Of a DNA stretch of 34,529 bases, positions 2,329 through 28,514 are shown piece after piece; positions within the stretch are counted from its first letter, which is position 1, and the number at the start of each line of letters is the position of its first letter. The DNA comes from Bacteroidales bacterium (lineage in GTDB: Bacteria > Bacteroidota > Bacteroidia > Bacteroidales > P3). Location of the stretch: NCBI GenBank assembly GCA_017962665.1, contig JAGCUU010000007.1, forward strand, positions 1 to 34,529, written 5' to 3'. The notes under the pieces were generated by a model, which saw only the letters and a list, made by a program, of their open reading frames with translations, did not search any database and was not told where the DNA came from. Both the position numbers and the translations under genes were made by a program.

Positions 2329-2350
2329 GAGGTGATGTGGTGTTTATTGG

Positions 2351-5208: not shown

Positions 5209-5219
5209 TATGTGGTATG

Positions 5220-5999: not shown

Positions 6000-6012
6000 G
6001 ACAGAATTATGG

Positions 6013-6490: not shown

Positions 6491-6498
6491 CTATTGAG

Positions 6499-6569
6499 AG
6501 GTCGCTTCCGGATTTGAACCGGAGTAGCAGGTTTTGCAGACCTGTGCCTAGCCCCTCGGCCAAACGACC
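6499..6569 (-). tRNA. tRNA-Cys (GCA)
   Basis: The minus strand folds into a complete cloverleaf of 71 bases. The acceptor is GGTCGTT/AGCGACC with discriminator T, as expected for tRNA-Cys. The D stem is GCC/GGC and the anticodon stem is CAGGT/ACCTG with loop CTGCAAA, which places GCA at the anticodon. The variable loop is CTAC. The T stem is TCCGG/CCGGA with loop TTCAAAT. The 3' CCA is not encoded; the sequence continues CTC. Confidence 0.95.
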
Positions 6570-10344: not shown

Positions 10345-11538
10345 TCACTCTACCTTTTGCCCTTTGCTGTTCAGCAGAACGCCACGGTCGTAATCGCTCT
10401 TGCACAGGTAAAGGTCTTTGTCGATAGCCTCGATGCTGGAGTAGATGGGCGGTGTGAGTGCACGACCGTCGGGGGTCATCAGACCGTACCAGTAGGATTC
10501 GGCTTCGTATCGCAGACATGTTGCTATGGCCATCCGTTGGGCGGGATTGCTGTAGCTATAGTATTCGTCAGAACACTCGTTGCCGTCTTTGTTGACAGGA
10601 TACAGAACCTCATGAGTCTCATACATAAGTTGGGTGATATTCCTGATTTGTGAGGCTTCAATCAGTTTGCCGTGCAACGAATATGTCTTCTGTATATGGT
10701 CTGCAAATGTGGCGAGGATTACGGTGTCGTAAATCATAAATGTTGCATGTGCCGGAGGCATGACGGTGTCCATGTTAAAGGTCAGGATGGTCTGCTCATC
10801 AAGTGCCTTGAAGTGCCAGAAAGTGTCTATCGGTACGATCTCCTGGTAGACAGGAGGTACTACCCATTCGCCATTGCGGTCAATGAGGCCTATATGTGTA
10901 CCCGTGTTGTCGCGCACTGCACAATGGCCACCATGGAAGACATAGCCGTCATCGTCAGTACGGTAGGCAAAATGACGGTTGATGACGACGTTGCCTGTTG
11001 TGTCGATAAATTTCACTTTGCCGTTCCGTTCCACCGCGGCCAGACCTTCGGAGAAGACCCATGCATGACTGTAGGTCGGAGGCACAATAATATGGCCGTT
11101 ACGCATGTGGAAGTATCCACGCTTCTCACCGTCGCTGTAACACACCAGCGAATCCCCCTCCATAGGTTTCGATATCCAAGTGATTTTCTTTAACACTATT
11201 TCCCCGTTGCTGTCTGCAACATATCCATAGATGTTGTATGAGTGTTCGTAGAAGGAAAGGTTTTCCGAAATGGTTTCGGAAAGATAGGCATCGCCGTATT
11301 CTTCGCCGCGGTCAAGGATGTTTCGTGCCATCCAACAGACTTTTTGTCCTGCTATGATGAGTATACCTACTGTCCATAGTACAACAACTACGGTAAAGGC
11401 TGTACCCACGATGCGTCGTAATACGCGACCGTACTTCGTCTCGTCTTTCATGCCAAAGAGAGTCGCTACCCAGTCGACTAATGTAGAGAAGACTTTCTTA
11501 ATCCCTCTCCAAAGAGATTTTTTTTCATTTGTTTCCAT
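10345..11538 (-). CDS. Membrane-anchored WG-repeat protein
   Basis: The 397-residue protein has a basic cytoplasmic segment, one transmembrane helix at about 44-64 (GTAFTVVVVLWTVGILIIAG) and then a long extracytoplasmic part. This part has degenerate WG/KWG beta repeats, for example EKRGYFHMRNGHIIVPPTY, SEGLAAVERNGKVKFIDTTG and HIGLIDRNGEWVVPPVY. The charge distribution (KYGRVLRR before the helix) predicts N-in, C-out. WG-repeat proteins are abundant in Bacteroidota and have no single known function; they probably act as binding scaffolds. The next upstream gene pair also encodes a WG-repeat protein, but a terminator separates them. Confidence 0.8.
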   Translation of the reverse strand: METNEKKSLWRGIKKVFSTLVDWVATLFGMKDETKYGRVLRRIVGTAFTVVVVLWTVGILIIAGQKVCWMARNILDRGEEYGDAYLSETISENLSFYEHSYNIYGYVADSNGEIVLKKITWISKPMEGDSLVCYSDGEKRGYFHMRNGHIIVPPTYSHAWVFSEGLAAVERNGKVKFIDTTGNVVINRHFAYRTDDDGYVFHGGHCAVRDNTGTHIGLIDRNGEWVVPPVYQEIVPIDTFWHFKALDEQTILTFNMDTVMPPAHATFMIYDTVILATFADHIQKTYSLHGKLIEASQIRNITQLMYETHEVLYPVNKDGNECSDEYYSYSNPAQRMAIATCLRYEAESYWYGLMTPDGRALTPPIYSSIEAIDKDLYLCKSDYDRGVLLNSKGQKVE

Positions 11539-11655: not shown

Positions 11656-11696
11656 AAAAAAAAACTGCGTCGGAAACGTATCCAGCGCAGCTTTTT
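11656..11696 (-). terminator. Rho-independent terminator after the aspartic protease gene
   Basis: On the minus strand an A-run leads into CTGCG...CGCAG (with an inner GG/CC pair), followed by eight T residues. It starts 24 bases downstream of the stop codon of the aspartic protease gene and marks the likely end of the long leftward transcription unit. Confidence 0.8.
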
Positions 11697-11720: not shown

Positions 11721-12398
11721 TCAGAAGAGTAGTATGTTGCTTTTGAAATCCAATAGTACTTTGTACCTGTTAAACAAATCAAAACCAATAGCGCCTTCTA
11801 TGCCCATCATTTTAAGAGGCATTTCCAATGCTTGTGGCAGCACTCCGAAGTTGACGGGGAAAGTCTCTTTCTCAATGGAGGCCTCCATGGTATAGACTTG
11901 TGTTTTGTAGTTGCCAATCATGGGATTAAAATCATCTATCGTTTCAAGCAGTGTTTCTCCCTCTGTAAGTGTTTTGTCTATATATGATATTCTTGCACCT
12001 GTGTCAAGTGCTACTCTTACAGGAGTGTTTTTCACCGTCATGTTGATACAAACCTCTCCCATGTGACCACGCAGAATGGGTGTCGAGCAGGTGCCATCAA
12101 ATGGGATTGGCTCGTCGCTGAACGTCACTTGTTTCTGTTTGTAGTCCGTCAGGATATAGAATTTCTCTATGATGTCCATCCCCATAAAGACGTCAAGATC
12201 ATAATTCATTAGTTGGGATAGGCTATTGATATCCTTTCCACCCAGTGAGGTGTGACAGCTAAACACTTGTCCCATAAAGTCGAAGGAGCTTTGTTTCGCA
12301 ATCGTTACAGGACAGCCGGTGTCTACTAATACTTTCAAACCATCAATAATAATAATCAGATGGCCGTCATACAGGTCAATGTCAAATGTTTTGATCAT
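11721..12398 (-). CDS. Two-lobed retropepsin-like aspartic protease
   Basis: The 225-residue protein holds two copies of an aspartic protease fold in one chain. The first lobe has LVDTG with D26 and a later hydrophobic-glycine element VFMGMDII (70-77). The second lobe has ALDTG with D132 and GAIGFDLF (202-209). The spacing from DTG to the second element is about 45 residues in the first lobe and 70 in the second. Retropepsins usually have one lobe and dimerise; here both aspartates are on one chain, so a monomeric, pepsin-like active site is expected. No signal peptide or membrane helix is seen, so it should be cytoplasmic. It starts 9 bases after a WG-repeat gene and is the last gene before a terminator. 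Substrate unknown. Confidence 0.8.
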   Translation of the reverse strand: MIKTFDIDLYDGHLIIIIDGLKVLVDTGCPVTIAKQSSFDFMGQVFSCHTSLGGKDINSLSQLMNYDLDVFMGMDIIEKFYILTDYKQKQVTFSDEPIPFDGTCSTPILRGHMGEVCINMTVKNTPVRVALDTGARISYIDKTLTEGETLLETIDDFNPMIGNYKTQVYTMEASIEKETFPVNFGVLPQALEMPLKMMGIEGAIGFDLFNRYKVLLDFKSNILLF

Positions 12399-12407
12399 AA
12401 TAAAAAA

Positions 12408-13703
12408 TTAATCATGTAAATGAAGCCAAATATAAGGGAATTCGTCGCTTGTCCATATAATCTCGCCTTTCTGGTTGATATAGTGGAATTTCCCATCTTG
12501 TTTTATTGGAGCAACTTTTCCGATGAAATAATGTGCCTCGTCAAATTGTGGTTTGATAGCATATTCCCCCTTTTTGTTAATATAGCCGTATTTCCCGTTT
12601 TTTTTGACGGCAGCAAATCCCTCTTTGTAAGGTTTTGCATCGTCAAATCCTTTTATACTTATTAATAAACGACGGAAAAACATTCTTTTACCCCAAGCCC
12701 TTTTTGGTAGAGAATCCCTTGTTATATAGTGGCATTTATCGTTTATTTTGACAATGGCAATTCCATCGTTAAAATTATCTGCGTCGTCGAATAATGGTTT
12801 TATAAAATACTCACCTTTCTTGTTTATATAGCCGTACTTGCCATTGGCGCTGACACAAGCCAATCCTTGAGAAAAATCTGTAACTGTATCGAATTGTGGC
12901 TTTATGGCGAACTCTCCGTTTTTGTCAATATATCCAAACTTTCCATCTATTTTGACTGCTGCCAACCCTTCGATGAAATTACCCGCAATATCATATTGCG
13001 GATTAATGATAAACTGTCCAGTCTTATCGATGAATCCCCATTTCCCTTTTGAAGGTTTAACATACCAATGAATATAGGGCGAATCGTATAAAGGATTCTT
13101 TTCGGTTTCAATCATCACCCGGGCCAGCCCCTCATGGAAATTGTATGCGTCGTCGAACTGAGGGGTAATGGCATATTCTCCTGTCATATCTATAGGAATC
13201 CTATTTGTCCCGTAATGTAAAGTATTGGAAAAATCTTTGTTTTCAATTGTTTTCAGACTTATGTAACCCCATTTGCCATCTGTCTTGACGCATGCAAGGT
13301 CTTCGGAGAAAGTCATTCCAATATCTTCAAAAGCAGGATTTACAATAAAATCAATCTTCAATGACCAATGGTCGGAGATATCACAATTCTGTCGGATGTA
13401 TCCCCATTTACCATCTTTACCATTCATTACAATTGACTTTTCTGGCGGAAAAGATACATCATGGTCAAATTTGGGCTCGGCGGCCCAACGACCATAACAG
13501 TCTATATAACCCCACGTAGGCGGATAATAATCTGAAAGAAGAGTTTTGATAGGGGTGGTATTGTCAAGAATCATTGCAACACAAGCGGTGTCGCGGGAAA
13601 AAATATCTGCAAACTCAAACTGAGGCTTAATGACAATTTTCCCGTCAGCATCAATGTATCCTTCTTTATTATTTTGTCTTATTGGATATAAATCATGCAG
13701 CAT
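12408..13703 (-). CDS. Cytoplasmic WG-repeat protein
   Basis: The 431-residue protein is almost entirely WG (KWG) repeats, about nine or ten copies of roughly 40 residues. Well-preserved ones include KWGFIDKTGQFIINPQYD, KFGYIDKNGEFAIKPQFD and KYGYINKKGEYFIKPLFD, each followed by an F..GLA.V strand. There is no signal peptide or transmembrane helix. The gene is more AT-rich than most neighbours. It lies 9 bases before the aspartic protease gene and 39 bases after the M48-TerB gene, so it probably belongs to the same transcript. It may bind a partner or present a substrate to the protease, but this is inference from position only. Confidence 0.82.
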   Translation of the reverse strand: MLHDLYPIRQNNKEGYIDADGKIVIKPQFEFADIFSRDTACVAMILDNTTPIKTLLSDYYPPTWGYIDCYGRWAAEPKFDHDVSFPPEKSIVMNGKDGKWGYIRQNCDISDHWSLKIDFIVNPAFEDIGMTFSEDLACVKTDGKWGYISLKTIENKDFSNTLHYGTNRIPIDMTGEYAITPQFDDAYNFHEGLARVMIETEKNPLYDSPYIHWYVKPSKGKWGFIDKTGQFIINPQYDIAGNFIEGLAAVKIDGKFGYIDKNGEFAIKPQFDTVTDFSQGLACVSANGKYGYINKKGEYFIKPLFDDADNFNDGIAIVKINDKCHYITRDSLPKRAWGKRMFFRRLLISIKGFDDAKPYKEGFAAVKKNGKYGYINKKGEYAIKPQFDEAHYFIGKVAPIKQDGKFHYINQKGEIIWTSDEFPYIWLHLHD

Positions 13704-13742
13704 GTCAAAATGTTTTATGGAAATACTTCTTGGTTGACGTGC

Positions 13743-14951
13743 TTAGCAGATTGACTCCAGGCTTGGTACGTAGCTTTTCTGTATGGAATGGGCGATGGAT
13801 TGAGCCACCTCCATTTCGCTGAAGCCTATGCTTTCTCCGAAGTTGTAAAGCATATTTACCTCCTGTTCGGCGATTTTCTTGTCGCTCATCACGATATGAA
13901 TCATGTATTGTAGCAGGCTTTCGCGCATGCCGGGGTTGATGTTCAGAATATTGCCTACTGCTTTGTTGAAGGTGTCTCCGATGTCTCCTGCGGCAATCTC
14001 TTCCAGGTAGCGGCGTGGGAAAATCTGCAGGCTGGCCAGGGTGTCGAGAATCTGGTTGAATTCGTCATCTTTAATCTCTCCGTCTGAAGAGGCTACGATG
14101 ATGCCTGCCGAAGCCATGAAGCGTGCAAGGTGTTCGTCAAGTTCCGAGTTACCAACTTTCAGGAGTATTGCAATCAGTTCGTCCATGCCTTGTTTCAATG
14201 ATTCTTCCGTATCGGCGTTGGCAAAGAGGTTGAGAGCTTGCACGCGGATGGGGTTGACGGGGTGTGAGGCGCGGCTTACACCTTTGTCGTTAAGGAAGTA
14301 GTCCAGTCGGCGGTTGTTGTCGGCGAGAAGAGCTTCGATACTGACACTCATCTTCTCCAGGTCGAGACCGGAGGCCATCTTGAAGAATGCTGTCACGCAG
14401 ACGTTCAGGTTGTTCGTGGCCATATACCCATAGCGGTCAGCCACCAGTTCGGCCAGCTGTTCGTGTAGGCGGATCTTATACTGGAGCGAGACCGGTACAT
14501 TGGAGTTGGGAGGGAAGACGAAATAAATAAGACGGCTGAGTGATGTGTCGCGGTTGATAAGGTGTCCGAGCTCATGTCCAACCACGAAACGCAGTTCGTC
14601 CTGGGTCATCAGGTCAAATAGGCCAGAGTTTACATTGACGATGTGCGGCTGCCCTTCATCTTCGGCAGCCAGAGAGAAGGCGTTGACCGTTGAGTCGCCG
14701 GTGATGTAGAAATCCACAGGCTCGTCGAAGTTCAGCTGTTGCTTTACCTCTTGGCAAAGGCGGTAGAAGTCAGGCAACAACTCTGGCTGCACCTTGAGGC
14801 AGTGTCCCTCCATGCTGCTGCGCCAGTAGGCGTCGCTGCTGGAAATCTTTGTTTTGCGGAGCACCTCCTCTACTACAGGTCCTTGCAGAGCGTTGTAGAT
14901 TTGACTGCCAATCTGTTTCTCGAGTTCGATGGTTGGATTAAGTTTTTTCAT
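13743..14951 (-). CDS. M48-type metallopeptidase fused to a TerB-like domain
   Basis: The 402-residue protein has a gluzincin peptidase domain: HELGH at 126-130 binds zinc, and the ligand glutamate is E168 in LAELVADRYG, the usual M48 arrangement. Residues of about 275-395 look like a TerB helical domain, with ASSDGEIKDDE and MSDKKIAEQE acidic turns typical of that family. No membrane helix is seen, unlike many M48 proteases, so it is probably cytoplasmic. The frame is open further upstream, but ATG 14951 (MKKLNPTIELEKQ) is used because the upstream part is low-quality and overlaps an inverted repeat. TerB domains occur in tellurite/phage-type stress systems. The gene sits between a RyR gene and WG-repeat gene. 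Confidence 0.85.
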   Translation of the reverse strand: MKKLNPTIELEKQIGSQIYNALQGPVVEEVLRKTKISSSDAYWRSSMEGHCLKVQPELLPDFYRLCQEVKQQLNFDEPVDFYITGDSTVNAFSLAAEDEGQPHIVNVNSGLFDLMTQDELRFVVGHELGHLINRDTSLSRLIYFVFPPNSNVPVSLQYKIRLHEQLAELVADRYGYMATNNLNVCVTAFFKMASGLDLEKMSVSIEALLADNNRRLDYFLNDKGVSRASHPVNPIRVQALNLFANADTEESLKQGMDELIAILLKVGNSELDEHLARFMASAGIIVASSDGEIKDDEFNQILDTLASLQIFPRRYLEEIAAGDIGDTFNKAVGNILNINPGMRESLLQYMIHIVMSDKKIAEQEVNMLYNFGESIGFSEMEVAQSIAHSIQKSYVPSLESIC

Positions 14952-14986
14952 GACGGTATTGTTTTTGTGATCATTTTTCAGTGTAG

Positions 14987-15020
14987 CAAGGGAAGAGCGG
15001 TAAGGGTGGCTCTTCCCTTG
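14987..15020. repeat. Perfect 12-bp inverted repeat upstream of the M48-TerB gene
   Basis: CAAGGGAAGAGC, a 10-base loop, then GCTCTTCCCTTG. It lies 15 bases after the RyR gene stop and 35 bases before the M48-TerB start. No T-run follows on the minus strand. It could limit read-through, stabilise a processed end, or bind a regulator. Confidence 0.7.
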
Positions 15021-15035
15021 GATTGTCAAGCGCGG

Positions 15036-15329
15036 TCATCGTTTGTTGATGTCAAATCCTGCTTTCAGGATGAATTTTAGAGTTTCAGTGCAGGTGTTGC
15101 GGTCGTATACTTTCTCCTCTTCGGGCAGCTCTTCGTAGGGGATGAGGCATGGATGTTTTTTGTTGGCATCGTCGCGCTCTGGCCCGTAAGTCCAGCCTTG
15201 TTCGATGCGGGTTTCAGCCCAGATTTCATGCACGTTTTTCGACATCTTCTCTACTAATGGTCCCAATTCCTCTGGCAGCTGGACATCCTTTGTGTCTACG
15301 GGCTGCGGAATGTAATTCTCGGTTTTCAT
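15036..15329 (-). CDS. Stand-alone RyR-domain protein
   Basis: The 97-residue protein is a single RyR domain, the module first named in ryanodine receptors and common in bacterial signalling genes. Key features are VHEIWAETRIEQGW (33-46), TYGPERDD (47-54), KKHPCLIPY (57-65) and EEKVYDR (71-77). It is closely similar to the C-terminal domain of the next upstream gene (both have WTYGPxRDDANKKHP), so the two are recent paralogs. The ligand of bacterial RyR domains is not established to my knowledge; a nucleotide-like ligand is an inference. The gap of 130 bases to the upstream gene has no recognised promoter. Confidence 0.85.
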   Translation of the reverse strand: MKTENYIPQPVDTKDVQLPEELGPLVEKMSKNVHEIWAETRIEQGWTYGPERDDANKKHPCLIPYEELPEEEKVYDRNTCTETLKFILKAGFDINKR

Positions 15330-15459
15330 GTTCTTTCCTTTTTTGGTTTATTACAACATTAGAGAGCCTTGGCGCCTCAAAAAAATATCATCACTTCTCT
15401 TCAAATTCGCATTTTTATACAAGTTCCATAAAACATCTTCCATCATACATCACACATCT

Positions 15460-16398
15460 TCAACCTTTATCAATAATGTCGAATCCAAGCTTTTTCACCA
15501 GCTTGATAGTATCCATGGCCATAATGCGGTCGTATTCTTTTTCGCTGTCCGGTAGAGAAGAGTAGGGGAGTAGGTCGGGATGTTTCTTGTTGGCGTCATC
15601 GCGCACGGGACCGTAAGTCCATCCCTCCTTTATTCTTGCCGCAGCCCACACTTCATGGGCGTTTTCAGCTATGGCTTCTCTCAATTCCAGTAGATCGTCC
15701 GTAATCTGTATGTTTTCAAGGTTGATGGGCTGTGGCTCGTAGTCTTCTACCGACTGCAGGGCCCGAATCATATAGTTGCGCGATTCTTTCCATGCTGCCT
15801 CGAAATGTGAGGTGTGAACGGTATATGGATTACCGTCTTGGGGATCGAAAATGGTTACTGTGTTTGATTCTGAGTCAAGTCCTGTGACAACTATAGCGTG
15901 GTTTGGAGCATCTTCCATATCGGGACATTCGGGATGTAGTTTGTCGCTATCCACCACCACCAAAACGTCATTGTCCAATTCGAGCGCCTTGCGTATATCT
16001 TCCAGCGAGGCATCGTATTTTCGTGTAACCATCAGGCCGTAATGAGCCAGCAGTTGCCCTATGGAGTGAAGTGGCGAGCCTTGCGGCGTCAGCCAATTAT
16101 TCTGTTGTGCGATATCCAGCATTTCTTTCTCGTCGAACTGGATGTCGCGGCGATGAAGGACATAAGCTTCACACAGCACGCTGCAGATATTGTCCCCGCT
16201 TTCCGCCGCCATTTGCAACATAGGCAATATGTCGAAATTGGACAATGGCTCTTCTTTCACCCGTAAGGCAATTTCGAGAGTTTCTCGCAGCACGGGATCC
16301 GTTTTGAGGGCTTTCAACACTGCGAGCGTTTCCTCCTCGTTTGTATTGCCGTCAAGGTATGCAGCCAACAAATCGTCAGAAATATAGTTATTTGCCAT
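15460..16398 (-). CDS. Anti-sigma-like protein with papain-like (C39-like) and RyR domains
   Basis: The 312-residue protein begins with a short helical region (YISDDLLAAYLDGNTNEEE, TDPVLRETLE) that looks like the sigma-binding part of an anti-sigma factor, without zinc ligands. Residues 65-212 resemble a C39-like papain-fold peptidase: candidate nucleophile C72 or C76 in NICSVLCEAYVL, histidine H167 in NHAIVVTG, and D185 in FDPQDG. Residues 218-310 are a RyR domain with HEVWAAARIKEGWTYG. There is no transmembrane helix, unlike classical ECF anti-sigmas. The start overlaps the sigma gene stop by 11 bases, so the two are translationally coupled. I infer a soluble, ligand- or proteolysis-controlled regulator of that sigma factor. 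Confidence 0.78.
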   Translation of the reverse strand: MANNYISDDLLAAYLDGNTNEEETLAVLKALKTDPVLRETLEIALRVKEEPLSNFDILPMLQMAAESGDNICSVLCEAYVLHRRDIQFDEKEMLDIAQQNNWLTPQGSPLHSIGQLLAHYGLMVTRKYDASLEDIRKALELDNDVLVVVDSDKLHPECPDMEDAPNHAIVVTGLDSESNTVTIFDPQDGNPYTVHTSHFEAAWKESRNYMIRALQSVEDYEPQPINLENIQITDDLLELREAIAENAHEVWAAARIKEGWTYGPVRDDANKKHPDLLPYSSLPDSEKEYDRIMAMDTIKLVKKLGFDIIDKG

Positions 16399-16945
16399 AT
16401 TCTCTAATATCGTTAAGGGCGACTTGGGTCAATTGTTCCATGGCTCGCCGTTTGATGTTGTACAAATTAGTCGTTTTGATGTTCATTTCTTTCGCCAGTT
16501 GTTCGGGAGGCACTCCTTCGATGATGAGCTTTTGGATGACGTCGACATATCTTTTGTTGGGCATCAACGAGAAAAGCCTTTTGAGATCTTCACTTGCAAA
16601 ACTGTGGTTTGTCTCGGTTGCTATTTCGTCAGTGTGCTCATTATATGGAGTCTCGTGACTGTTCTTTTCTATCATTCTGGTGCGTTTCTCAACGAAGTGG
16701 CGGATGGCTACGATCTTCAACCACTGACAGATGGAACTCCGGTACTCAAATTTGCGCAGTTTCCTTGCATCGTCCTTCATTATGAAGAGGTATAGTTCGT
16801 TGACGAATTCGTTGTAGTCCACCTCGCAGTTAAAGACCTCGCGGATAATGCTGCAGAACAGCGGCCGGCATTTGACAAAGAAAAACTCCTCCGTCACTTT
16901 GTTGTCACGGTCTATCAGTCCTTGTATGATTTCCTTGTCGGTCAT
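16388..16945 (-). CDS. ECF-type RNA polymerase sigma factor
   Basis: The 185-residue protein has a sigma region 2 (about 20-105: EEFFFVKCRPLFCSIIREVF, then FVNELYLFIM and SSICQWLKIVAIRHF) and a region 4 helix-turn-helix (about 130-180: MPNKRYVDVIQKLIIEG, EQLAKEMNIKTTNLYNIKRRA). The frame is open to 17092, but the extension has no sigma-like sequence and overlaps the upstream gene, so ATG 16945 (MTDKEIIQGL) is used. It is followed directly by the anti-sigma-like gene. It is located in the middle of the gene run rather than at the front, and probably directs transcription of a promoter elsewhere or of the run itself. Confidence 0.88.
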   Translation of the reverse strand: MTDKEIIQGLIDRDNKVTEEFFFVKCRPLFCSIIREVFNCEVDYNEFVNELYLFIMKDDARKLRKFEYRSSICQWLKIVAIRHFVEKRTRMIEKNSHETPYNEHTDEIATETNHSFASEDLKRLFSLMPNKRYVDVIQKLIIEGVPPEQLAKEMNIKTTNLYNIKRRAMEQLTQVALNDIREYGK

Positions 16946-16965
16946 TGAAAAGATATCACTTTTTG

Positions 16966-18105
16966 TTATTCGTTGGACAGGTGCAGTTCGTCTATGAGTT
17001 CGCTGGAGATGACTTCGGCTGGTGCTTGGAGAACGGTGACGACCCAGGACTTTGTGATTTCGTCCCAGTTTTGCATTGTTATGAATTGCCAACCGTTGGA
17101 GAGCAGGTTTTTATTCCCTTTTGCTGCTTTTTTCCTCTCTTTGCGGTTTTGTTTCCAGTTTTTGCTATAATCGGACGTTAGACTGCATGACTCCCTGAGT
17201 TCAAGAGAGACCTGATATTCTCCGGTACCCCAAGCCGGGTGGGCGTCGCCTCGTGCATCCAAACAGCCGGAGTAAGAGCGTGGAACCACAAAACTGCTTC
17301 CAACAATGGTGTACTTCGGTTCCTCATTTCCATGACGTACGTATCGTAGGAATTCACTGGAATCCAGGTCCTCCTTTCTGACAGGAATATAGATGCTGAA
17401 TTCACCCAGCTGTTCATCCCGGAAAATCTGTGTGAGTTCATTCATCCATGAGGAGGTGATTGTTAGATTGATGTTCATGGAATAGTTAGTCCTCTCATTC
17501 CAGCAGAAAGCGGTGTCAAACGACGAGTTTGGAAGGTTGGAATGGGTGGGGCTGATGATCAAGGTGTCCAATACCAGTTCGAACTTGCTGTGTTCAATGA
17601 TGCGGTTGATCTTGCTTCGGTCAATATGCATTGAGATATAGAACAAAGTATCGTTGCCGCTTTTGCGCACAACACCGATGCCGTTGAACCTCATGCCCGA
17701 CGGGTCGAGAGGACTGGTCAGCGAAGTCGTCGAGTAAAAGTCTTTAAGTCCTGTAATGGTGTGTATTTGTGTACAAAACGTGTTTTCTGCCGCAACGGTT
17801 TGTGACCATTCCTGCTTGATGCGTTGCTGCCTTGTTATAAGATTTGCCACAGCTTGTACTCCGAAATCAAAGACCGATGTGACATAACCGGCGCCAATAC
17901 CTTTTGCGGCATTGAGTGTAGCCTCTAACAACATGTCGCTAAAAGCACCCCTATCGTCTGTGTGGAGAGACACCATATCGCTATAGTTTTTGATTTCGTT
18001 GGACAGGCTTTCGTCAGTGTAGATGAAGGCTGTATACGTTACCGTCTGAGCCATGATTGTGATGCTACATAGTATAGCTCCAAAAAAAACTATAATTTTT
18101 TTCAT
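16966..18105 (-). CDS. Secreted protein of unknown function
   Basis: The 379-residue protein has a Sec signal peptide (MKKIIVFFGAILCSITIMAQ). The mature protein contains helical sequence near 50-100 (FSDMLLEATLNAAKGIGAG) and then mixed beta sequence. A notable feature is a very basic stretch near the C terminus (NWKQNRKERKKAAKGNK). I do not recognise the family. It lies 19 bases from the secreted CHAT gene upstream and 20 bases from the sigma gene downstream, so it is presumably a periplasmic partner of the CHAT protein. Confidence 0.7.
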   Translation of the reverse strand: MKKIIVFFGAILCSITIMAQTVTYTAFIYTDESLSNEIKNYSDMVSLHTDDRGAFSDMLLEATLNAAKGIGAGYVTSVFDFGVQAVANLITRQQRIKQEWSQTVAAENTFCTQIHTITGLKDFYSTTSLTSPLDPSGMRFNGIGVVRKSGNDTLFYISMHIDRSKINRIIEHSKFELVLDTLIISPTHSNLPNSSFDTAFCWNERTNYSMNINLTITSSWMNELTQIFRDEQLGEFSIYIPVRKEDLDSSEFLRYVRHGNEEPKYTIVGSSFVVPRSYSGCLDARGDAHPAWGTGEYQVSLELRESCSLTSDYSKNWKQNRKERKKAAKGNKNLLSNGWQFITMQNWDEITKSWVVTVLQAPAEVISSELIDELHLSNE

Positions 18106-18124
18106 TGTTATGTTGTTTTTTACT

Positions 18125-20371
18125 TTATTCTAATCCGTCAATAAGGATAAATGCATCGGTAAAGAATGGCCTGTCAAAGCTGCTGTATTTAGTGCGGCCA
18201 TATTTCCTATATGACCATCTTTCGGAGCGAAGTTGTTGCCGGGCTTGGTAAAAGGCTTCGTGAATGGATAGTCCCTTTTCAATGTTGGCATATAGGTTTT
18301 TTATCAGAAGGCTGGTGGCTGTGTCGCTTACGTTCCAAAGACTGACAATGACAGCCTTTACACCGGCGGTCTTGAGTCCGCGTTGAAGGCCGTAGATGCC
18401 ATCGGGTGTGGCGAAGCCCAGCCCGGACACACAGGCTGACAACACGGCCAGATCTACCTCCGACAGATTCATTGCAGCCAGTTCACGGGCCGATAATATT
18501 CCGTCTGGCTTTTCCGCGTCAAAGGTGCTGTCTGACAGATTTTGCTCAGCGCCGGCCAGGAAAAGGCAGCTTTGTGACAATTGGGCATCGGTTGTCGCAG
18601 GTCTAAGGTCGGAATCCACAATTGCGGCGCGGTCAACCCATCCGTGGGTGGAAAGCAATACAATATGGTATTTCTCAATCAGGTTGCGAAGCGACGATTC
18701 TGTGGCCGAGTCTGCAACCAATAATGTGTTTGTTTTGTCTTTTCTCAAGCTGTCCACAGCTTCTATTTCAGCCAATGTTCCTTTCAGTTCCTTTAGATGG
18801 ATGTTAAGAGGCGCAAGCAATTGGTAGGCCAGGTCATCATTTGTTACACCGTCTTGTTTTGATTCTCTGTCGGGACGTGCGTTCTTATAGTCGATGCCAC
18901 CAACCATAAGCATATTGTCGGTACGTATTTTATGCGTAGTCTCAGTCAACATCCGTGTAGATGTCAAACGGAAAAATTTGTATTCCGGCAACATATACTC
19001 AATGGCGATACGGTGCAATATCCCGTCGGGAGTGAAATAAATGGTGTGGCATCCTCTTATTGCATTCCTAAGGGAGTCGTTCCATATCAGTTTGTGAAAC
19101 GAGGTGTCGTAATAGATGGTGTTTATGGCATTGATGTCATCAGTACATGGCAACAATTCTTCTATCGTTTTTCCATTGGGCAGAACATGATTTAATAGGT
19201 CGTTCAACGGAGTGATGGGGACAAATACGGGCTTGCCTTTTTTCTTCAATACAAGTGCTCCCAGATGGTCGGCATGTCCGCGCTCGTAAACTATGAATTC
19301 AATGGCAGCGGCAGTGTCGGGCAGCCTTCGTTGTACCTGTTGCCATGTGACGTTGATTTTGGAAAGAACTTTTTTCTTGTCGACGCTACTCATCCCTGGT
19401 TTGAATTTGCGGCCCATCTGCAGCAGTACTGCCTTGCTGAACAGTGCAACGTCATACAATAAGTCCGGGGCTTTGTCCTCCAGTCGGTAGCAGTCGGTGA
19501 CAAATGGCTGTTCGGTCATCCAGTATTGTTCACGTTCAGACTCGTTCATGTCTATAAAATGAGATTCGATGTATGCCCGCGAAAGCTGGAGATAGTCAGT
19601 GTAGTATTGGCGTGATTTAGGACTGTATTCTCCTGTCGCGTCATATTTAAGCATCAGGATTTTCGCTTTTTGTCGCAACAGTTCGGCCCGCTTGCGAGCT
19701 GTTTTTGCTTTTTGGCTCTCAAGCATCGAGAGAGCTTTGTCGTATTGTCCCAGTTGTGCCAGGCAAAGAGCCTGTTGGCTTGCAAGCTCCGGGTTCGGCA
19801 AGACGCTGTCCAGATGGTCCAATGCCTGCTGGTAAAGTCCCTTTCGATAATACAGTTGTGCAAATTCGTCGTGCAAATCACTTATAAACGATGTTTCGTA
19901 TGGTGAAGCAAGTTCCATCGCTTTGCGCAATTCTTTTTCCGTGATGACTAAATCTCCTGTGAGGAAATGCCTTCCGGCATCTAGTTTTATCAGCTGGGCA
20001 TAGCAGTCGTTTTTAGGAAACTGGAAGGAAGACATGGCAGAATCCATCTCGTCTGCCACCTGTAGCATTACGTTATACAGTCCCAACCGGTAAGCGGTCT
20101 CGGCTATGCTTCTGTTGATGGGCCACCAATAGTTCAGAAAGTCGTTTTCACTCAACATCTTTGCCGTTTTGCCGCGCATCTCGTTGAGCATCCGGTTTCG
20201 GACATCGGACATGGCTCTGTAGGCTTCAAGGTATTTCCCGGCATCGTTCAAGTTATAGGCCGCCTTGTAGTCGTTGTAAAGCGTATCACTAAAGATGCTC
20301 TGCGCATCAACAGTGTTAAGGATTTGCAACTGAACAATACAAATCAGGAAAGCTATGTGGATTTTTTTCAT
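18125..20371 (-). CDS. Secreted TPR-CHAT (caspase-like) protein
   Basis: The 748-residue protein has a signal peptide (MKKIHIAFLICIVQLQILNTVDA), TPR-like helices over about 25-300, and a C-terminal CHAT domain. The catalytic dyad is H576 in LLSTHGW and C647 in VLSACVSGLG, and the downstream motif YGLQRGLKTAGVKAVIVSLW is characteristic. CHAT domains are caspase-family cysteine peptidases that cut specific partners, as in the gRAMP/Craspase TPR-CHAT. A signal peptide means the protease is exported, which is the usual situation for Bacteroidota TPR-CHAT proteins but differs from cytosolic defence CHATs. Its start overlaps the upstream pseudokinase gene by 4 bases (ATGA-type coupling). Confidence 0.9.
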   Translation of the reverse strand: MKKIHIAFLICIVQLQILNTVDAQSIFSDTLYNDYKAAYNLNDAGKYLEAYRAMSDVRNRMLNEMRGKTAKMLSENDFLNYWWPINRSIAETAYRLGLYNVMLQVADEMDSAMSSFQFPKNDCYAQLIKLDAGRHFLTGDLVITEKELRKAMELASPYETSFISDLHDEFAQLYYRKGLYQQALDHLDSVLPNPELASQQALCLAQLGQYDKALSMLESQKAKTARKRAELLRQKAKILMLKYDATGEYSPKSRQYYTDYLQLSRAYIESHFIDMNESEREQYWMTEQPFVTDCYRLEDKAPDLLYDVALFSKAVLLQMGRKFKPGMSSVDKKKVLSKINVTWQQVQRRLPDTAAAIEFIVYERGHADHLGALVLKKKGKPVFVPITPLNDLLNHVLPNGKTIEELLPCTDDINAINTIYYDTSFHKLIWNDSLRNAIRGCHTIYFTPDGILHRIAIEYMLPEYKFFRLTSTRMLTETTHKIRTDNMLMVGGIDYKNARPDRESKQDGVTNDDLAYQLLAPLNIHLKELKGTLAEIEAVDSLRKDKTNTLLVADSATESSLRNLIEKYHIVLLSTHGWVDRAAIVDSDLRPATTDAQLSQSCLFLAGAEQNLSDSTFDAEKPDGILSARELAAMNLSEVDLAVLSACVSGLGFATPDGIYGLQRGLKTAGVKAVIVSLWNVSDTATSLLIKNLYANIEKGLSIHEAFYQARQQLRSERWSYRKYGRTKYSSFDRPFFTDAFILIDGLE

Positions 20372-21408
20372 TTTGTCGACTGACGTGAGTTGTAATTGAT
20401 AATGACAAACGATAGGTTGCTCTTAGAGGAGTTGACAATTTTCAAGGTCAGGACATCGCTGGTCTTGACGTTTTTGTCAACGGTGATATATTTCACTCCG
20501 TCCACTTCGTGGATTTTCCCTATAGGCACATTGTTCTGTGACAGGGAAACGCTGAAAATGGATTTAGGGTTGTATGGTATCACAGCAAAAGTCTGAGTTC
20601 CTTCACGGCCGGTGATGTTGTATTTCAATGTAGCATTGCGTTTGGCGGTGACTTCAATAAAAGAATAGTTGTAGCGTGGGTCTTGACCGTTGCGGAATCG
20701 TCCTCCGGTATTGCTCACTCCGCGGTTGTATCTGGCTATTTGGTATCCCATCTGGTTGAGGCCCAATGTAGTTACCTTGTCGCGGACGGTGCACTCACCG
20801 GCGCTGTCAATCTCTAATTCGTCCATCAGTGTCCATTGGCGGTCATCGTACAGGGCACGTTCAATACGGACCGAATTTTTTGGATTGCGCAGGTCACAGA
20901 CGTGTTTTACGAGGGTTTCCATCTCCTGTGTCAGTTTTGGGGCGTTTTGCGTCAATGCTGCAAAGGGAAGTATAAGCAGAAACAGCATAATGACGACAGG
21001 GTTCATCTCCTCGGGCCAGAATTTTGTGATAGGGGATTTGTAGCTTTTACCGGTAGACGAGAAAAGCCGTCTTGTCGGTTCGGTTTTGGCCGCGAGAGCA
21101 TCATTGGCGGCAGCGAGCAACTCTTGCTGTGAAGGTCTCTCTTCGGCATTGAACGAAAGACAGCGATAGATAATGTTGCTCAATTGCCGGCTGCAGTGAG
21201 CCTCCCCGATGCGTGGAACAGGAGTGTTTGCGTTTTGTGTCTCATGTCCCTTGCCGGCGAACACTTCAACACCCATCAAGGCATAGAAAGCCGTTGCTCC
21301 TATACTCCATACGTCAGGTTGTTGTGTCGAAGCCTCATCTTTGATTATCTGCCATACTGCTTTTTCAGTCAGATAGCCGGCAACTTCTTTTAGTTGAATG
21401 TTTTCCAT
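20368..21408 (-). CDS. Shortened membrane pseudokinase with periplasmic domain
   Basis: The 346-residue protein starts with only the C-terminal lobe of a Ser/Thr protein kinase. It has LTEKAVWQII, then DVWSIGATAFYAL (subdomain IX, 32-44) and CLSFNAEERPS (subdomain XI, 83-93). The ATP-binding lobe, the HRD catalytic loop and DFG are absent, and the upstream gene ends 5 bases away, so nothing is hidden upstream. A transmembrane helix spans about 137-153, preceded by lysines, giving N-in, C-out. The rest (about 155-346) is a beta-rich extracytoplasmic domain not recognised. It cannot be an active kinase. It may be a docking module that responds to phospho-signals. It is coupled to the CHAT gene. 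Confidence 0.78.
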   Translation of the reverse strand: MENIQLKEVAGYLTEKAVWQIIKDEASTQQPDVWSIGATAFYALMGVEVFAGKGHETQNANTPVPRIGEAHCSRQLSNIIYRCLSFNAEERPSQQELLAAANDALAAKTEPTRRLFSSTGKSYKSPITKFWPEEMNPVVIMLFLLILPFAALTQNAPKLTQEMETLVKHVCDLRNPKNSVRIERALYDDRQWTLMDELEIDSAGECTVRDKVTTLGLNQMGYQIARYNRGVSNTGGRFRNGQDPRYNYSFIEVTAKRNATLKYNITGREGTQTFAVIPYNPKSIFSVSLSQNNVPIGKIHEVDGVKYITVDKNVKTSDVLTLKIVNSSKSNLSFVIINYNSRQSTK

Positions 21409-21413
21409 AATAC

Positions 21414-22793
21414 CTACCTCCTGTATAAGTCTTGGGATGAGAGTTCGTCATCATTTGTTTTGCTCTGGGTGGCATGTGTTATCTCTGTGGCGGGAACGGC
21501 CCAGAAGGTGCCTTGGCTTGCGTAAATATCCACCTTTGAGACAATTCCAATCACCTTGATTTTGTTGCCGATGAGAGCCAAAATCGGACCTCCGGAATTA
21601 CCTTGGTTGATTTGTGCAGACATCTGGATGCAGCCTTTTATGCGCGATGATACACCGTCAAGGGCAATGTGCTGGCTGTTGCCGAATGTGAGTGTCAGTG
21701 CTTCATTGTCATTCTCTTTTTGAGGATAGCCCAATATGGCGATGTCGCGGTTGGTCTGCTGGTCAAAACGGTTCAGGTCTTCAATGTCAGCCATTGCAAA
21801 GGCGCCCTTCAATCCCTTCGGAGACTCTACGTAAACCAGATCGCCGAGCTCCATGTCGCGACGGTTGGCGACAGGGATGATGGTGCGAAGCCACAAGGGG
21901 CGTTCGCGTGAACCAAGCTGTAGAACCAAGTCGTGCTCTCGGTTGATGAAGAAATCATCCGACAGGTATTCGTAGCTTTCTCCATCCCGACTGATGGTGC
22001 AGTGTGTTCTGACCCTCCATTTGCCTTCTCCGTTGCGGTTGGCAGTCTCGGCCAACACCGCTAGGCGTACCTCGGCAGGCATGGCCATCTCAAAGGCACC
22101 GTCCCAGCTCTCGTCGGCCACCCAGGGCTCTATGCAGTGACGGGCGGTGACAAATTTCCCGTCATCGGTCAGGAAGCATGTGGCAGAGAGAGGGTTTTCA
22201 AAGGCAGCGCTTTCAACGACAATTTCATCGACCACGCCCTCTATTATAGTGTCTTTTACAAGCATTACGTAATCGGTAACAATATGGTATACCGAAGCAT
22301 TGTAACTGTCGAGATTTACATTGTGAATACCATTGTTGTTGCGGCTGCTGTAAATGGCATAGCAAGCCACCAGCAGAGCGACAACGGTCACTATTGAGGC
22401 TATCGCAAGGGCTCGTCTTCGTGGCTGATGATATACCACCACACCTGAAGCATCGTCATAGTCGCTGTCTTTACGAATATTGAAGGTGAACTGTACGGCA
22501 TTTCCAAAGCCTGAAAAACAGATGGAGTCACCGTCGTGCAGCTGGAGTGCGGACATCAGCGGTTTACCATTGACTGTAATGTCAAAGGAGTCAGTGCGGC
22601 GGACAATGCACCATCCGTCACTTTCCAAAGGAAGAATTGTCGCAAACAGCAGCGGCTCATAGAGGTCGGACTCAGGTATGGCTACATCGCATGCGGCGGT
22701 CTGCCCTATGTCGAGCGGACGTTTGGCGCACAGGATACCGTCTCCTGCCTTGTGTCCCTGCCAAGAGTTATTATATGTCAGTCTGTAGTACAT
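21414..22793 (-). CDS. FHA - transmembrane - trypsin-like serine protease
   Basis: The 459-residue protein has an N-terminal FHA-like domain (about 20-105, LDIGQTAACDVAIPE, ITVNGKPL, LHDGDSICF), which would bind phosphothreonine in the cytoplasm. A transmembrane helix follows at about 128-148 after an RRR stop signal, so N-in, C-out. The rest is a trypsin-fold protease with H219 (TARHC), D288 (REHDLVLQL) and S400 (QGNSGGPI), all three catalytic residues present. The FHA match lacks a strong RS motif, so its phospho-binding is less sure. The gene overlaps the next upstream gene by 16 bases and lies 5 bases from the pseudokinase gene. Confidence 0.85.
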   Translation of the reverse strand: MYYRLTYNNSWQGHKAGDGILCAKRPLDIGQTAACDVAIPESDLYEPLLFATILPLESDGWCIVRRTDSFDITVNGKPLMSALQLHDGDSICFSGFGNAVQFTFNIRKDSDYDDASGVVVYHQPRRRALAIASIVTVVALLVACYAIYSSRNNNGIHNVNLDSYNASVYHIVTDYVMLVKDTIIEGVVDEIVVESAAFENPLSATCFLTDDGKFVTARHCIEPWVADESWDGAFEMAMPAEVRLAVLAETANRNGEGKWRVRTHCTISRDGESYEYLSDDFFINREHDLVLQLGSRERPLWLRTIIPVANRRDMELGDLVYVESPKGLKGAFAMADIEDLNRFDQQTNRDIAILGYPQKENDNEALTLTFGNSQHIALDGVSSRIKGCIQMSAQINQGNSGGPILALIGNKIKVIGIVSKVDIYASQGTFWAVPATEITHATQSKTNDDELSSQDLYRR

Positions 22794-24247
22794 GTCTTGA
22801 GGATTAAAGGAATACCTTGAGTCAAAGCCTTGTCGTACACAGCAACGTTTTTGCCGGTAGCATCTTCGCGGAGGTCGCTGAAGGCTCGCAGGTCATAGTG
22901 AATCTTGCGGTCGCGCAGTTTGCGTTTCAAGTTGATGTCTTGGTCTACAGCTGCCTGTTCTTCGTCGGTAACGGGGCGGTAACCGAGCAGCAGCTCTTCC
23001 ACGCTCCAGCGGTTGTGTTCTACCTCGGAGAGGGTGTCGATTTCTTCTTTCGACAATGCGTAATAGGCTTTCCAGTCTTCGACAGTGAGACCTACAGAAT
23101 GCATCTTCGTCGCCAAAGTCATTGAGTTCAAAACATTGGAATAGCGTTTTCCGAACGAAGTCAATTCTGCCCATTGCCGTTCCATCTTGACGAGGTTGAT
23201 GTCGTTTGGGGCGGTGACGGGTTCCTCGGGGGCGAGCGAATAGCAGTGGTTGTAGATGTAGTTGACCCTCATAGCCATCTGCTTCAGAGTGTGGAGGGTG
23301 CTTATGTCACATATCTCTTCTGAGAAGGGAATGATGTTTCTGTTTGCGGAAAAGTTGAAATGGGGAGAGCCGAAAGTTTGAAAAAGGACGGGGATGTTGT
23401 TGGCATTCAGTTCGTCGGGCAAGGTAAGTGCGGTGGTGGCGTTGCTGTTCGGATTTGAGCCGCAGACGGCTACTGTTAGTTGTTGTGTGTCCGTCGTGGC
23501 CCATTCCGACAATTTCTGGCGAACGGCATCGTTGCTTGCATCGGCTTTCACAAATTCCCATTCAATGTCGACAAAGTCTTTTCGCTTACCTTCATACATC
23601 GGACGGTGCAGCACACAGTGTGGCTCACGTTCGTCGAGGTTCAATGAGCGATGGTAGGAGTGTTCGAACAGGTGGCGATAGCGTTGCTGCATATGGTTGC
23701 GAAACGAAAAGATGTCGTTGTCGATGAGGGTGATTCTTGTACGCAGACGGTTGTCGCGGCAGTAGTTGGGATAGTGGGCGATGAAGGCGGTATTTATTGC
23801 CAGCGCTTCAGCCATGGCTGTCGAACCGAATATCACCAAGTGTACGGTCTTGTTGCTGTTGCGGTATTGGGGCTCGCGGTCCAGAAAAAGGAAAGACGAC
23901 GATAGGGTGTGTTCTTTCGACGCAGAGTTATGGCTCATTTCAGGCAGTTGCAACAGGAGTGTTTTGGCGATGAGATCCTCTTTGGTGGTAATCATGACAT
24001 CGGCTTTCCCTGATATTTCGTCCGGAATCCCCAGCGTCAATACCTGCCACCACGAAGAGATGTCGTCGAACAGCAAGGTGCATTCCATCCGTTTGCCGTC
24101 ATGTTCCTCGCATCGGTATTCTGCTGCCTCGTCGCGCAATCTTCCAAGGATGGCGTTGTCGTCCTCTTCGACAAAGACCTTTTTGCCTTTTTCCTTCTCG
24201 GCAGAGATAAAAAATGCGTCTTTATATTTTTTGTTAACTATCAACAT
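22778..24247 (-). CDS. Rossmann (TrkA-N-like) and RyR-domain protein
   Basis: The 489-residue cytoplasmic protein has a central Rossmann-like domain (about 135-295) starting VHLVIFGSTAMAEALAIN, with the acidic end of strand 2 at LIDND (174-178). This suggests NAD(H) or a related dinucleotide as ligand, as in TrkA-N domains. Residues about 403-485 form a divergent RyR domain: EHNRWSVEELLLGYR (410-424), IHYDLRAFSDL (449-459) and VAVYDKAL. The N-terminal 130 residues are unassigned. It is the first gene of the codirectional run, preceded by a -7 box, and so is probably the promoter-proximal sensor component. Confidence 0.78.
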   Translation of the reverse strand: MLIVNKKYKDAFFISAEKEKGKKVFVEEDDNAILGRLRDEAAEYRCEEHDGKRMECTLLFDDISSWWQVLTLGIPDEISGKADVMITTKEDLIAKTLLLQLPEMSHNSASKEHTLSSSFLFLDREPQYRNSNKTVHLVIFGSTAMAEALAINTAFIAHYPNYCRDNRLRTRITLIDNDIFSFRNHMQQRYRHLFEHSYHRSLNLDEREPHCVLHRPMYEGKRKDFVDIEWEFVKADASNDAVRQKLSEWATTDTQQLTVAVCGSNPNSNATTALTLPDELNANNIPVLFQTFGSPHFNFSANRNIIPFSEEICDISTLHTLKQMAMRVNYIYNHCYSLAPEEPVTAPNDINLVKMERQWAELTSFGKRYSNVLNSMTLATKMHSVGLTVEDWKAYYALSKEEIDTLSEVEHNRWSVEELLLGYRPVTDEEQAAVDQDINLKRKLRDRKIHYDLRAFSDLREDATGKNVAVYDKALTQGIPLILKTCTTD

Positions 24248-24348
24248 GGCAATTGATGGTGGTTTCTCTACGAGTGTGGTTCTACTAATATTTTGAATTT
24301 CTCTTTCTTAAAGTTTTTATGGTGCGTTGTTTGTTAAAAAACAATGTG

Positions 24349-24356
24349 CAAATTTA
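24349..24356 (-). promoter_or_regulatory. -7 box of the long leftward gene run
   Basis: The minus strand reads TAAATTTG followed by C. No TTTG is correctly spaced upstream. It is about 100 bases before the ATG of the Rossmann-RyR gene and is the only candidate promoter found before the run 24247-11721. Confidence 0.5.
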
Positions 24357-26853: not shown

Positions 26854-26997
26854 TTATTTGTTCAAGTCTTTCCCAACTTCCTGCAGCAACCTCGCCCACT
26901 TCTCATCCTCTCGCTTGTAGCTTATGAATGCGTAGTATTCTTTATTGTCGTCCATTCTGTGGTTTATATAGTTCTGCCAGAAGAATTTTTCAATCAT
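26854..26997 (-). pseudogene. Remnant of a TIR-domain gene
   Basis: A 47-codon frame contains MDDNKEYYAFISYKREDEKW, the characteristic start of Bacteroidota TIR proteins (YxxFISYxxxD), then ends after ARLLQEVGKDLNK. A TIR domain needs about 130 residues, so this cannot fold. The ATG may be at 26955 rather than 26997. It resembles what the start of the TIR-WD40 gene at the right end of the window should look like, though that N terminus is outside the window. Confidence 0.6.
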
Positions 26998-27890: not shown

Positions 27891-28514
27891 CTAAGATGTT
27901 GCCCATTGCGAATTAATGTCGAACTCGTGAGACAGCAGGTCGACCAAATGCATCAAATACTGGCTGACACGTCTGCGCATAAGCATACGACAAGCCCATA
28001 CAGTGTGCTCTATTAAGGCATGATAATATTTGATTACGTCATTGTCATTGCTACCAGTCACACGTTCCATAAATGTAACCTGCTTTGCCGCTGCATATAG
28101 TTCGCGCAACTCAGCGTTGTCATACATTGGGGTTGGCACAAAACATAGTTGTTTTCGAACGAAATGATGCATATTTTCAAAAGCCTTATTCAAGTCCTTC
28201 TGAGCTTCTTTCCGATCACAATACCGACCTGTCAATGTTTTCACGTTGTCAATGACTGTCTTTTCAATTGCCTCGGACTTCTCCGCCAACAATTCATTAC
28301 CATAAGTAATAAATTCATTTAGAATCCGGTGCTTAATATCAATTTCTATCTCCTTGTCCACAGTCTTTCCGAGTGCAACAGCACCTTGAAAATAGTCAAT
28401 ATCAATATCGTTTAGTTTCTTCAGCATCAGTTTGTAGGGAGAATCAACATCGTACAATACCGGTCCTGCGATGGTTTCGAAAAAAGCCTTTGGTGATAAT
28501 TCTATGTCTTCCAT
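27891..28514 (-). CDS. All-helical protein of unknown function
   Basis: The 207-residue protein is predicted to be almost wholly alpha-helical, with no signal peptide or transmembrane helix. Possible conserved features are HHFVRKQLCFVPTPMYD near the middle and EHTVWACRMLMRRRVSQYL near the end. I do not recognise the family. A -7 box lies 22 bases upstream of the ATG. It precedes the AT-rich unknown gene and the two may be a pair. Confidence 0.65.
   Translation of the reverse strand: MEDIELSPKAFFETIAGPVLYDVDSPYKLMLKKLNDIDIDYFQGAVALGKTVDKEIEIDIKHRILNEFITYGNELLAEKSEAIEKTVIDNVKTLTGRYCDRKEAQKDLNKAFENMHHFVRKQLCFVPTPMYDNAELRELYAAAKQVTFMERVTGSNDNDVIKYYHALIEHTVWACRMLMRRRVSQYLMHLVDLLSHEFDINSQWATS

Follow-up and report, generated by a model that had tools for sequence, protein, structure and literature searches.

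In Thoeris, a TIR protein makes isomers of cyclic ADP-ribose (cADPR) that an effector binds, and the CalpL/CalpT/CalpS proteins associated with type III CRISPR form a cascade with a sigma-factor output. CalpL is a nucleotide-activated protease whose sensor domain, according to the accessible portion of one report, also degrades its activating ligand (PMC11417357). Genes for caspase, trypsin, and extracytoplasmic function (ECF) sigma factors are placed together in predicted conflict systems (EACC2/caspase, TPR) in the available text of another (PMC8195603). A structure of a ryanodine receptor-type (RyR) domain from Bacteroides thetaiotaomicron was released in 2010, and a function for phage versions of the domain is given in the accessible sections of a 2026 preprint (PMC13232231): the phage RyR protein RyDEP is a glycosidase that cleaves TIR-made cADPR, while of eight further phage homologs, six bound signals and none is reported there to cleave them. 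This work presents a locus from a Bacteroidales bacterium (assembly GCA_017962665.1, contig JAGCUU010000007.1; the whole contig of 34,529 nucleotides is referred to here as the window) in which eleven codirectional open reading frames (ORFs) run from position 24247 to 11721. We read it as a TIR/ADP-ribose-type signaling system with RyR domains as nucleotide-binding parts and with proteolytic and transcriptional outputs, and we assign this reading a probability of roughly 0.5.

All window features described here lie on the minus strand. In order of transcription, as given by the ORF list and the window sequence, the run encodes an RCK-like/RyR protein (g1), an FHA-transmembrane (TM)-trypsin protein (g2), a kinase remnant (g3), a CHAT peptidase (g4), a protein of unassigned family (g5), a sigma factor (g6), an anti-sigma-like/C39/RyR protein (g7), a RyR domain alone (g8), an M48-TerB protein (g9), a WG protein (g10), and an aspartic protease (g11). 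A preliminary description of this DNA had listed eleven codirectional genes with short gaps or overlaps, five protease folds, and three RyR domains, and the ORFs, Pfam matches, and motifs bear this out. The spacing is uniformly short only from g1 to g7 (-16, 5, -4, 19, 20, and -11 bp in order); the gaps after g7, g8, and g9 are longer (130, 84, and 39 bp), and 9 bp separates g10 from g11. The five protease folds are unrelated, and each retains catalytic motifs, namely, TARHC and GNSGG (trypsin), THG and LSAC (CHAT), HELGH (M48), and two DTG (aspartic protease), which we take to have their usual catalytic meaning, as well as Cys-His-Asp residues (C39); a sigma factor and a weakly supported anti-sigma segment complete the set. 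Pfam was run on 20 window proteins and NCBIfam on ten, and in the latter scan the sigma factor alone exceeded its cutoff. The run consists of two modules, A (g1 to g5) and B (g6 and g7), plus cargo, rather than one eleven-gene unit.

The main clue to the ligand is an association absent from the preliminary description: chromosomal RyR genes stand in operon-like runs with genes for TIR enzymes, and RyR is also fused to a sigma-paired peptidase. Using local hidden Markov models (HMMs), a TIR gene was detected in 43 of 69 RyR loci, a convenience sample rather than a random one, versus 0 of 20 control 20-kb regions, which were drawn from six genomes bearing RyR loci (Fisher p = 1.4e-7). The search of the order matched 37 of 393 genomes, and 20 of the matching stretches were fetched. 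When the window, L087, and L090 are set aside, because they provided HMM seeds or are duplicates of them, the count is 40 of 66; L022, L023, and L066 to L069 were removed as duplicates, L091/L092 and L096/L097 are neighboring stretches of one contig each, and L127/L128 look alike. The SUMF, sigma, and TM-WG models each matched once in the controls. In 42 of the 43 loci, the closest RyR and TIR genes are encoded on one strand, and in 21 of the 43 the gap between them is <100 bp. Pfam confirmed TIR_2 in 50 of the 51 TIR proteins scanned (69 are listed), and among these 51 it found a SIR2-like domain in 8 and an FGE-sulfatase domain in 11. Since a TIR_2 match occurs in 41 of 119 genomes of the genus, TIR genes are not ubiquitous there.

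The composition of individual TIR genes and cassettes varies. The TIR protein at L076:5305-6396 carries a Pfam-confirmed N-terminal macro domain, and those at L082:10970-12280, L083:11009-12385, and L110:12104-13465 carry a SIR2-like domain, an assignment of members that follows from a reading of the protein starts. Elsewhere, a TIR gene is immediately followed by a membrane RCK-RyR gene in a two-gene cassette (L033:12753-15554, L034:6598-9424, and L035:9474-12678). These cassettes look like minimal systems of TIR plus RyR channel.

Module B begins with g6 (16388..16945), an ECF-type sigma factor matching TIGR02937 at 45.5 bits (cutoff, 42.9). Its start is most likely the ATG at 16945; TTG 17092 was rejected because relatives start at MTD. 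The next gene, g7 (15460..16398), was parsed by Pfam, alignment, and model into an anti-sigma-like N terminus, a C39-like peptidase, and a RyR domain. C39_2 (32.0 bits) and RyR PF02026 (110.0 bits) exceed curated cutoffs, both folds are supported by the model (papain-like in the C39 part), the family gives a profile match to animal RyR repeats, and no membrane helix is predicted. The sigma factor of the previously proposed sigma/anti-sigma pair thus scores above its cutoff, whereas the anti-sigma factor has no separate gene; the N-terminal segment of g7 is its weakly supported candidate, with RseA_N and zf-HC2 each matching 3 of 15 family members below cutoff. The model comparison for g7 is hardly informative outside residues 52 to 218, and a missing anti-sigma match there carries no meaning. 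A relative that forms a pair with a sigma gene in L158 shows an H-x3-C-x2-C motif, and zf-HC2 matches it weakly. Beside module B, g8 (15036..15329) is a 97-residue RyR domain alone (PF02026, 127.7 bits). Relatives of g8 were found in 281 of 50,697 records of a phage collection, the two nearest being unannotated fecal records.

To survey module B, contigs were searched with the N-terminal region of g7, which yielded 16 loci titled Bacteroidales or families within Bacteroidales. Of these, 14 were full length (L077 is cut, and L088 lacks RyR); together with four order-level loci (L091, L094, L096, and L110) and the window, they make up 19 full-length C39-RyR loci. The sigma gene adjoins the C39-RyR gene in all 19, within 50 bp in 18 and with an 88-bp overlap in L081. 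In 17 of the 19, the window counted, a TIR gene is present in the same locus on the same strand. The corresponding search of the order gave matches in 15 of 393 genomes. RyR-less proteins of the g7 type still follow a sigma gene in L157, L158, L159, and L163, so the sigma/anti-sigma/C39 chassis is not tied to RyR. L158:858-3681 holds in succession a sigma gene, a RyR-less anti-sigma/C39-like protein, and, by eye, a TIR-like gene; also by eye, an M48-type gene comes next in L157.

The four ligand residues of RyDEP (H75, W78, H100, and D117) are all kept in g7, g8, and g1 and are invariant in three alignments (13/13, 15/15, and 9/9, the last being the g1-type alignment, A5). Their spacing is that of RyDEP in g7 and g8 and differs in g1. 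In total, 127 RyR proteins were counted. Among the 75 of the short type (with the L086 row taken from the 15-row alignment), equivalents of H75, W78, and D117 are present in 75/75 and of H100 in 56/75. For the 52 long proteins, a fixed-spacing count is unsuitable; alignment took its place, in A5 and A6 alone. In A6, W, H, and D are invariant in 20 rows and the first H is nearly so. These residues also suit a different role, in which RyR is mainly a ring-nuclease-like sink or hydrolase restraining a neighboring TIR/Thoeris-like system and the protease and sigma parts answer another cue. RyDEP acts as a glycosidase, and phage RyR proteins related to it serve as sponges, going by the accessible text of PMC13232231; all 75 short-type proteins retain the dyad His and Asp of RyDEP, small stand-alone forms make up 48 of the 127, and g8 has its phage relatives. 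We nevertheless consider a pure sink unlikely, given that fusion of RyR to anti-sigma/C39 and RCK-like proteins is more typical of sensors and that the pairing with a sigma gene is kept in 19/19 loci.

In module A, g1 (22778..24247) is an RCK/TrkA-like Rossmann protein with a C-terminal RyR domain and no TM helix. Pfam reports no family for it, the RyR domain having been detected by local HMM and alignment. The model suggests an RCK-like (gating-ring-like) fold, and the comparison lists barely cover g1 past residue 373. Long relatives weakly match the DMI1/CASTOR gating rings. Enkurin, the sole PDB sequence-profile match of a mixed g1 alignment (E, 0.01 to 0.03), was taken as chance and discarded. 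The second gene, g2 (21414..22793), encodes an FHA-like region (17.4 bits, below the cutoff of 20.7), a TM helix at 129, and a trypsin-like peptidase (34.7 bits, above the curated Pfam cutoff). In g3 (20368..21408), a TM helix at 135 accompanies a Pkinase match of 24.2 bits (cutoff, 31.7) and a C-terminal part of no known family. Because that match spans only positions 168 to 259 of 263, i.e., the C-lobe, g3 appears to be a kinase remnant; of the pseudokinase domain proposed earlier, there remains a kinase similarity below the cutoff. The g3 counterpart is broken into two ORFs in L089 and L177. TPR and CHAT domains (144.5 bits for CHAT) make up g4 (18125..20371), which starts with a signal-peptide-like hydrophobic segment, as does g5 (16966..18105), for which Pfam and NCBIfam give no match. 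Relatives of g5 occur in 7 of 119 genomes of the genus, the window included, and among 7 further g5 loci, a CHAT gene lies within the stretch in 6 (L176 to L181; the seventh, L175, is a 6.7-kb contig).

The five-gene block is present in four loci (the window, L089, L177, and L181) from at least two families. Key residues of the trypsin (His, Asp, and Ser), CHAT (His and Cys), and RyR domains are kept in all four. In L181, which is from another family (f42), a TIR-SUMF gene lies immediately upstream of the block. Modules A and B are adjacent in L089 as in the window, in reversed order; local HMMs find the block and no sigma/C39 gene in the fetched stretches of L177 and L181. Conversely, L087 holds the sigma/C39 pair and an RCK-RyR gene without trypsin, kinase remnant, CHAT, or g5. 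The complete eleven-gene set occurs in 1 of the 19 C39-RyR loci. Relatives thus do not conserve the eleven genes as one set, and the idea of a single conserved eleven-gene unit was rejected; the sigma pair and the block also occur apart.

The predicted locations of the proteases bear on how such modules might act. The trypsin is attached to a membrane helix and the CHAT protein and g5 have signal-peptide-like starts, while the C39 and M48 proteins have neither and g11 has a merely borderline hydrophobic stretch. Because the proteases are thus divided among compartments, a single linear cascade seems unlikely; of the cascade under a sigma factor and a ligand that had been put forward, the part that best suits the context is the reading of a ligand by RyR and Rossmann domains. 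Membrane-bound or exported proteases would also be expected of an envelope-stress system, in which trypsin/CHAT proteolysis outside reports to the sigma/anti-sigma pair and RyR serves as an energy gauge by sensing a common adenine nucleotide such as ATP or ADP. Proteolytic control of sigma/anti-sigma pairs is common, and the animal RyR Repeat12 domain was solved with AMP-PCP or ADP bound, according to the accessible text of PMC12627627. Lacking a predicted membrane helix, g7 could not itself report from the exterior, and the TIR linkage and the SIR2 and macro domains of TIR proteins would go unexplained; we regard this account as improbable.

A pattern scan of the minus strand located a promoter-like -7 element, TAAATTTGC, at 24348..24356, about 100 bp ahead of g1. 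Position 24356 marks the only minus-strand site for TAnnTTTG[CT] between 28543 and 10243; TAnnTTTG is what we take to be the Bacteroidota promoter consensus. Among 7 minus-strand T-runs of at least 7, only the one after g11 is preceded by a stable hairpin (11656..11696, -18.0 kcal/mol), a predicted intrinsic terminator that would end the run. With one promoter-like site and one strong terminator, the coordinates 24247 to 11721 fit a likely transcription unit comprising g1 to g11. This unit and the recurrence of the block in four loci favor the earlier claim of one proteolytic signaling system, as far as it does not extend to a conserved eleven-gene set. A further reading is that the locus is a defense island, with unrelated defense cassettes accumulated and read as one. 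The variable cargo, the occurrence of modules A and B apart, and an aspartic protease found here alone are what an island would show. The overlapping or closely spaced genes g1 to g7, the single promoter-like site and terminator, the adjacency of both modules in L089, and the presence of RyR in both make an island the least credible of the explanations considered.

Downstream of g8 come genes that we interpret as exchangeable cargo: g9 (13743..14951), an M48 metallopeptidase with TerB (52.2 and 29.0 bits, scored on a longer ORF; the start is most likely 14951); g10 (12408..13703), a WG-repeat protein (WG_beta_rep, 269.1 bits in 8 stretches); and g11 (11721..12398), a two-lobed retropepsin-like aspartic protease (RVP_2, 24.5 bits, above cutoff). 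Past the terminator lies a recurrent neighbor identified by local HMM, the TM-WG protein g12 (10345..11538), and a 53% identical protein follows RyR in L067. Across the 19 C39-RyR loci, M48 is found in 7 (on the other strand in L085), CHAT in 4, TM-WG in 4 (versus 1 of 20 controls), trypsin in 2, and the aspartic protease in 1, the window.

Upstream of the run, between the contig end and 24681, the larger ORFs all point in the same direction as g1 to g11. They include a TIR-WD40 protein (32024..34528) of which only the C-terminal end of the TIR domain remains at the contig edge, a second TPR-CHAT protein with a signal-peptide-like hydrophobic start (28855..31986; CHAT, 179.4 bits), and gC (27891..28514), a small protein whose relatives adjoin RyR genes in L030 and L031; gC and RyR are labeled within one ORF by local HMMs in L030, L031, L117, L119, L125, and L129. 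In all, this stretch encodes two small proteins without a Pfam match above cutoff; a sulfatase-family membrane protein is also encoded there, and between gD and the sulfatase gene lies a remnant of a second TIR gene (26854..26955), 33 codons followed by a stop, which by eye resembles the TIR start of L067. The latter locus, from the same genus, contains in one run RCK-RyR, TIR-WD40 with a whole TIR domain (38% identical to the window protein), gC-type, sigma, C39-RyR, RyR, and TM-WG genes, and it appears to be the window's locus carrying other cargo. A histidine kinase/response regulator pair occupies 1489-4495 of the window, and a like pair lies beyond the L067 run, so the two may share a chromosomal site. 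Toward the same end of the window as this pair are a DUF4956 protein adjoining a VTC-domain protein (4498-6032), a tRNA-Cys gene (6498-6569) inside a long, probably spurious ORF, and a protein combining ADP-ribosylglycohydrolase (two stretches) with a dual-specificity phosphatase-type domain (7616-10114), which is near the locus and may be housekeeping.

From these pairings, fusions, residues, predicted folds, and neighborhood counts, we infer a ligand, an order of events, and a purpose. The RyR domain probably senses or eliminates a NAD-derived immune signal. In the signaling system that we prefer, the TIR protein of the locus, once triggered, would make an ADP-ribose-type nucleotide from NAD+, as suggested by the TIR linkage and by TIR action elsewhere. 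This nucleotide would bind the RyR domains of g1 and g7, a step suggested by the conserved RyDEP ligand residues and by relatives in the Protein Data Bank. In a transcriptional arm, binding would activate the C39 peptidase of g7 to cut its own anti-sigma segment, freeing g6 for increased expression of the locus. In a proteolytic arm, g1 would relay its state to the membrane pair g2/g3, a direction of flow that could be otherwise, and g2/g3 would act, beyond the inner membrane, on the exported CHAT protein g4 together with g5, its partner. Finally, the stand-alone RyR protein g8 may remove or buffer the nucleotide and thereby reset the system, much like RyDEP or a ring nuclease. Defense against phage is the likely purpose.

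Several observations weigh against this signaling system. No TIR gene is found in the stretch read in 26 of the 69 RyR loci or in 2 of the 19 C39-RyR loci. In the window itself, a distance of 7.8 kb separates the nearest RyR from the sole TIR gene that is not plainly disrupted, and this gene is truncated by the contig end; the other is a remnant. The window is a whole contig of an assembly that is 77% complete. The block is rare: FHA-trypsin relatives occur in 3 of 386 genomes of the order, the window included, g5 is inverted in L177, and FHA-trypsin is found without the block in L182. Across the g7 family, no anti-sigma match exceeds any curated cutoff. In 19 of the 75 short-type proteins, including three full-length C39-RyR proteins (L091, L094, and L096), Asn or Thr takes the place of the phosphate-contacting His equivalent to H100, so ligand or role may vary among RyR proteins. 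Nor do the RyR residues appear to fix the role as binding or cleavage, since phage homologs bind without reported cleavage. PADLOC returned partial matches alone on the locus and no whole system: the trypsin part of g2 matched RT-Protease_XI, LmuA, and PDC-M35A; g3 matched mad6, PD-T4-6, and others; and g11 matched PDC-M08B.

Among the matches listed in searches of the open-licence PubMed Central literature, which mostly lacks subscription papers, we found no description of RyR-TIR operons or of a RyR-tied sigma factor and no role for bacterial RyR domains; PMC9503650 makes no mention of RyR. There is a real chance that the locus represents a new class of nucleotide-based bacterial conflict system. 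More broadly, and only tentatively, bacteria may possess cADPR/RyR signaling of their own, in which a TIR-made ADP-ribose nucleotide is read by host RyR proteins. The outputs would be a self-cleaving anti-sigma/C39 switch, a relay of trypsin and CHAT that spans the inner membrane, and, in relatives, an RCK-type membrane channel, and the whole would be a bacterial immune forerunner of the link between cADPR and the animal ryanodine receptor. If this is true, the outputs of TIR signaling in Bacteroidales extend to transcription, proteolysis, and channels, and bacteria offer a simple model for the animal cADPR-ryanodine receptor question. Its main steps lend themselves to short biochemistry with proteins of 97 and 312 residues.

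The locus can be compared with five kinds of known systems. With EACC2/caspase loci, it shares the combination of a caspase-fold peptidase, a trypsin-like peptidase, and an ECF sigma factor within a single predicted conflict system, as far as the available text of PMC8195603 goes; that text does not contain "RyR" and has ryanodine in its references alone. Pfam reported no EACC2 domain in the window, with the limit that the presence of an EACC2 model in Pfam was not checked. As in Thoeris, TIR genes adjoin genes for putative ADP-ribose-binding proteins, and the TIR proteins encoded in related loci include some with SIR2 or macro domains. The sensor here, however, would be RyR and the outputs a sigma factor and proteases. 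Strict membership in Thoeris was rejected for want of a described ThsA-type effector (SIR2-SLOG or macro), as no SIR2, SLOG, or Macro match was found among the 20 window proteins searched against Pfam (for TIR-WD40, among the best 25 of 75 families). The RyR domains share with RyDEP the PF02026 family and the same H, W, H, and D residues, equally spaced in g7 and g8. RyDEP is phage-borne and destroys or sequesters a signal, whereas the domains described here are chromosomal, are fused to a protease/anti-sigma protein and an RCK-like protein, and have relatives that adjoin a TIR source. The g7 family resembles the repeats of animal RyR (compare Repeat12) by profile, and long g1 relatives weakly resemble the plant CASTOR/DMI1 gating rings, but g1 lacks a membrane part and the bacterial proteins are much smaller. 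In its logic, the closest precedent is CalpL/CalpT/CalpS, in which, as would be the case here, a nucleotide-activated protease belongs to a cascade with a sigma factor. That system uses a SAVED-Lon protease and cyclic tetra-adenylate (cA4), and neither SAVED nor Lon was matched by Pfam in the 20 window proteins; here, in contrast, a C39-like protease, RyR, and an anti-sigma-like segment are combined in one chain.

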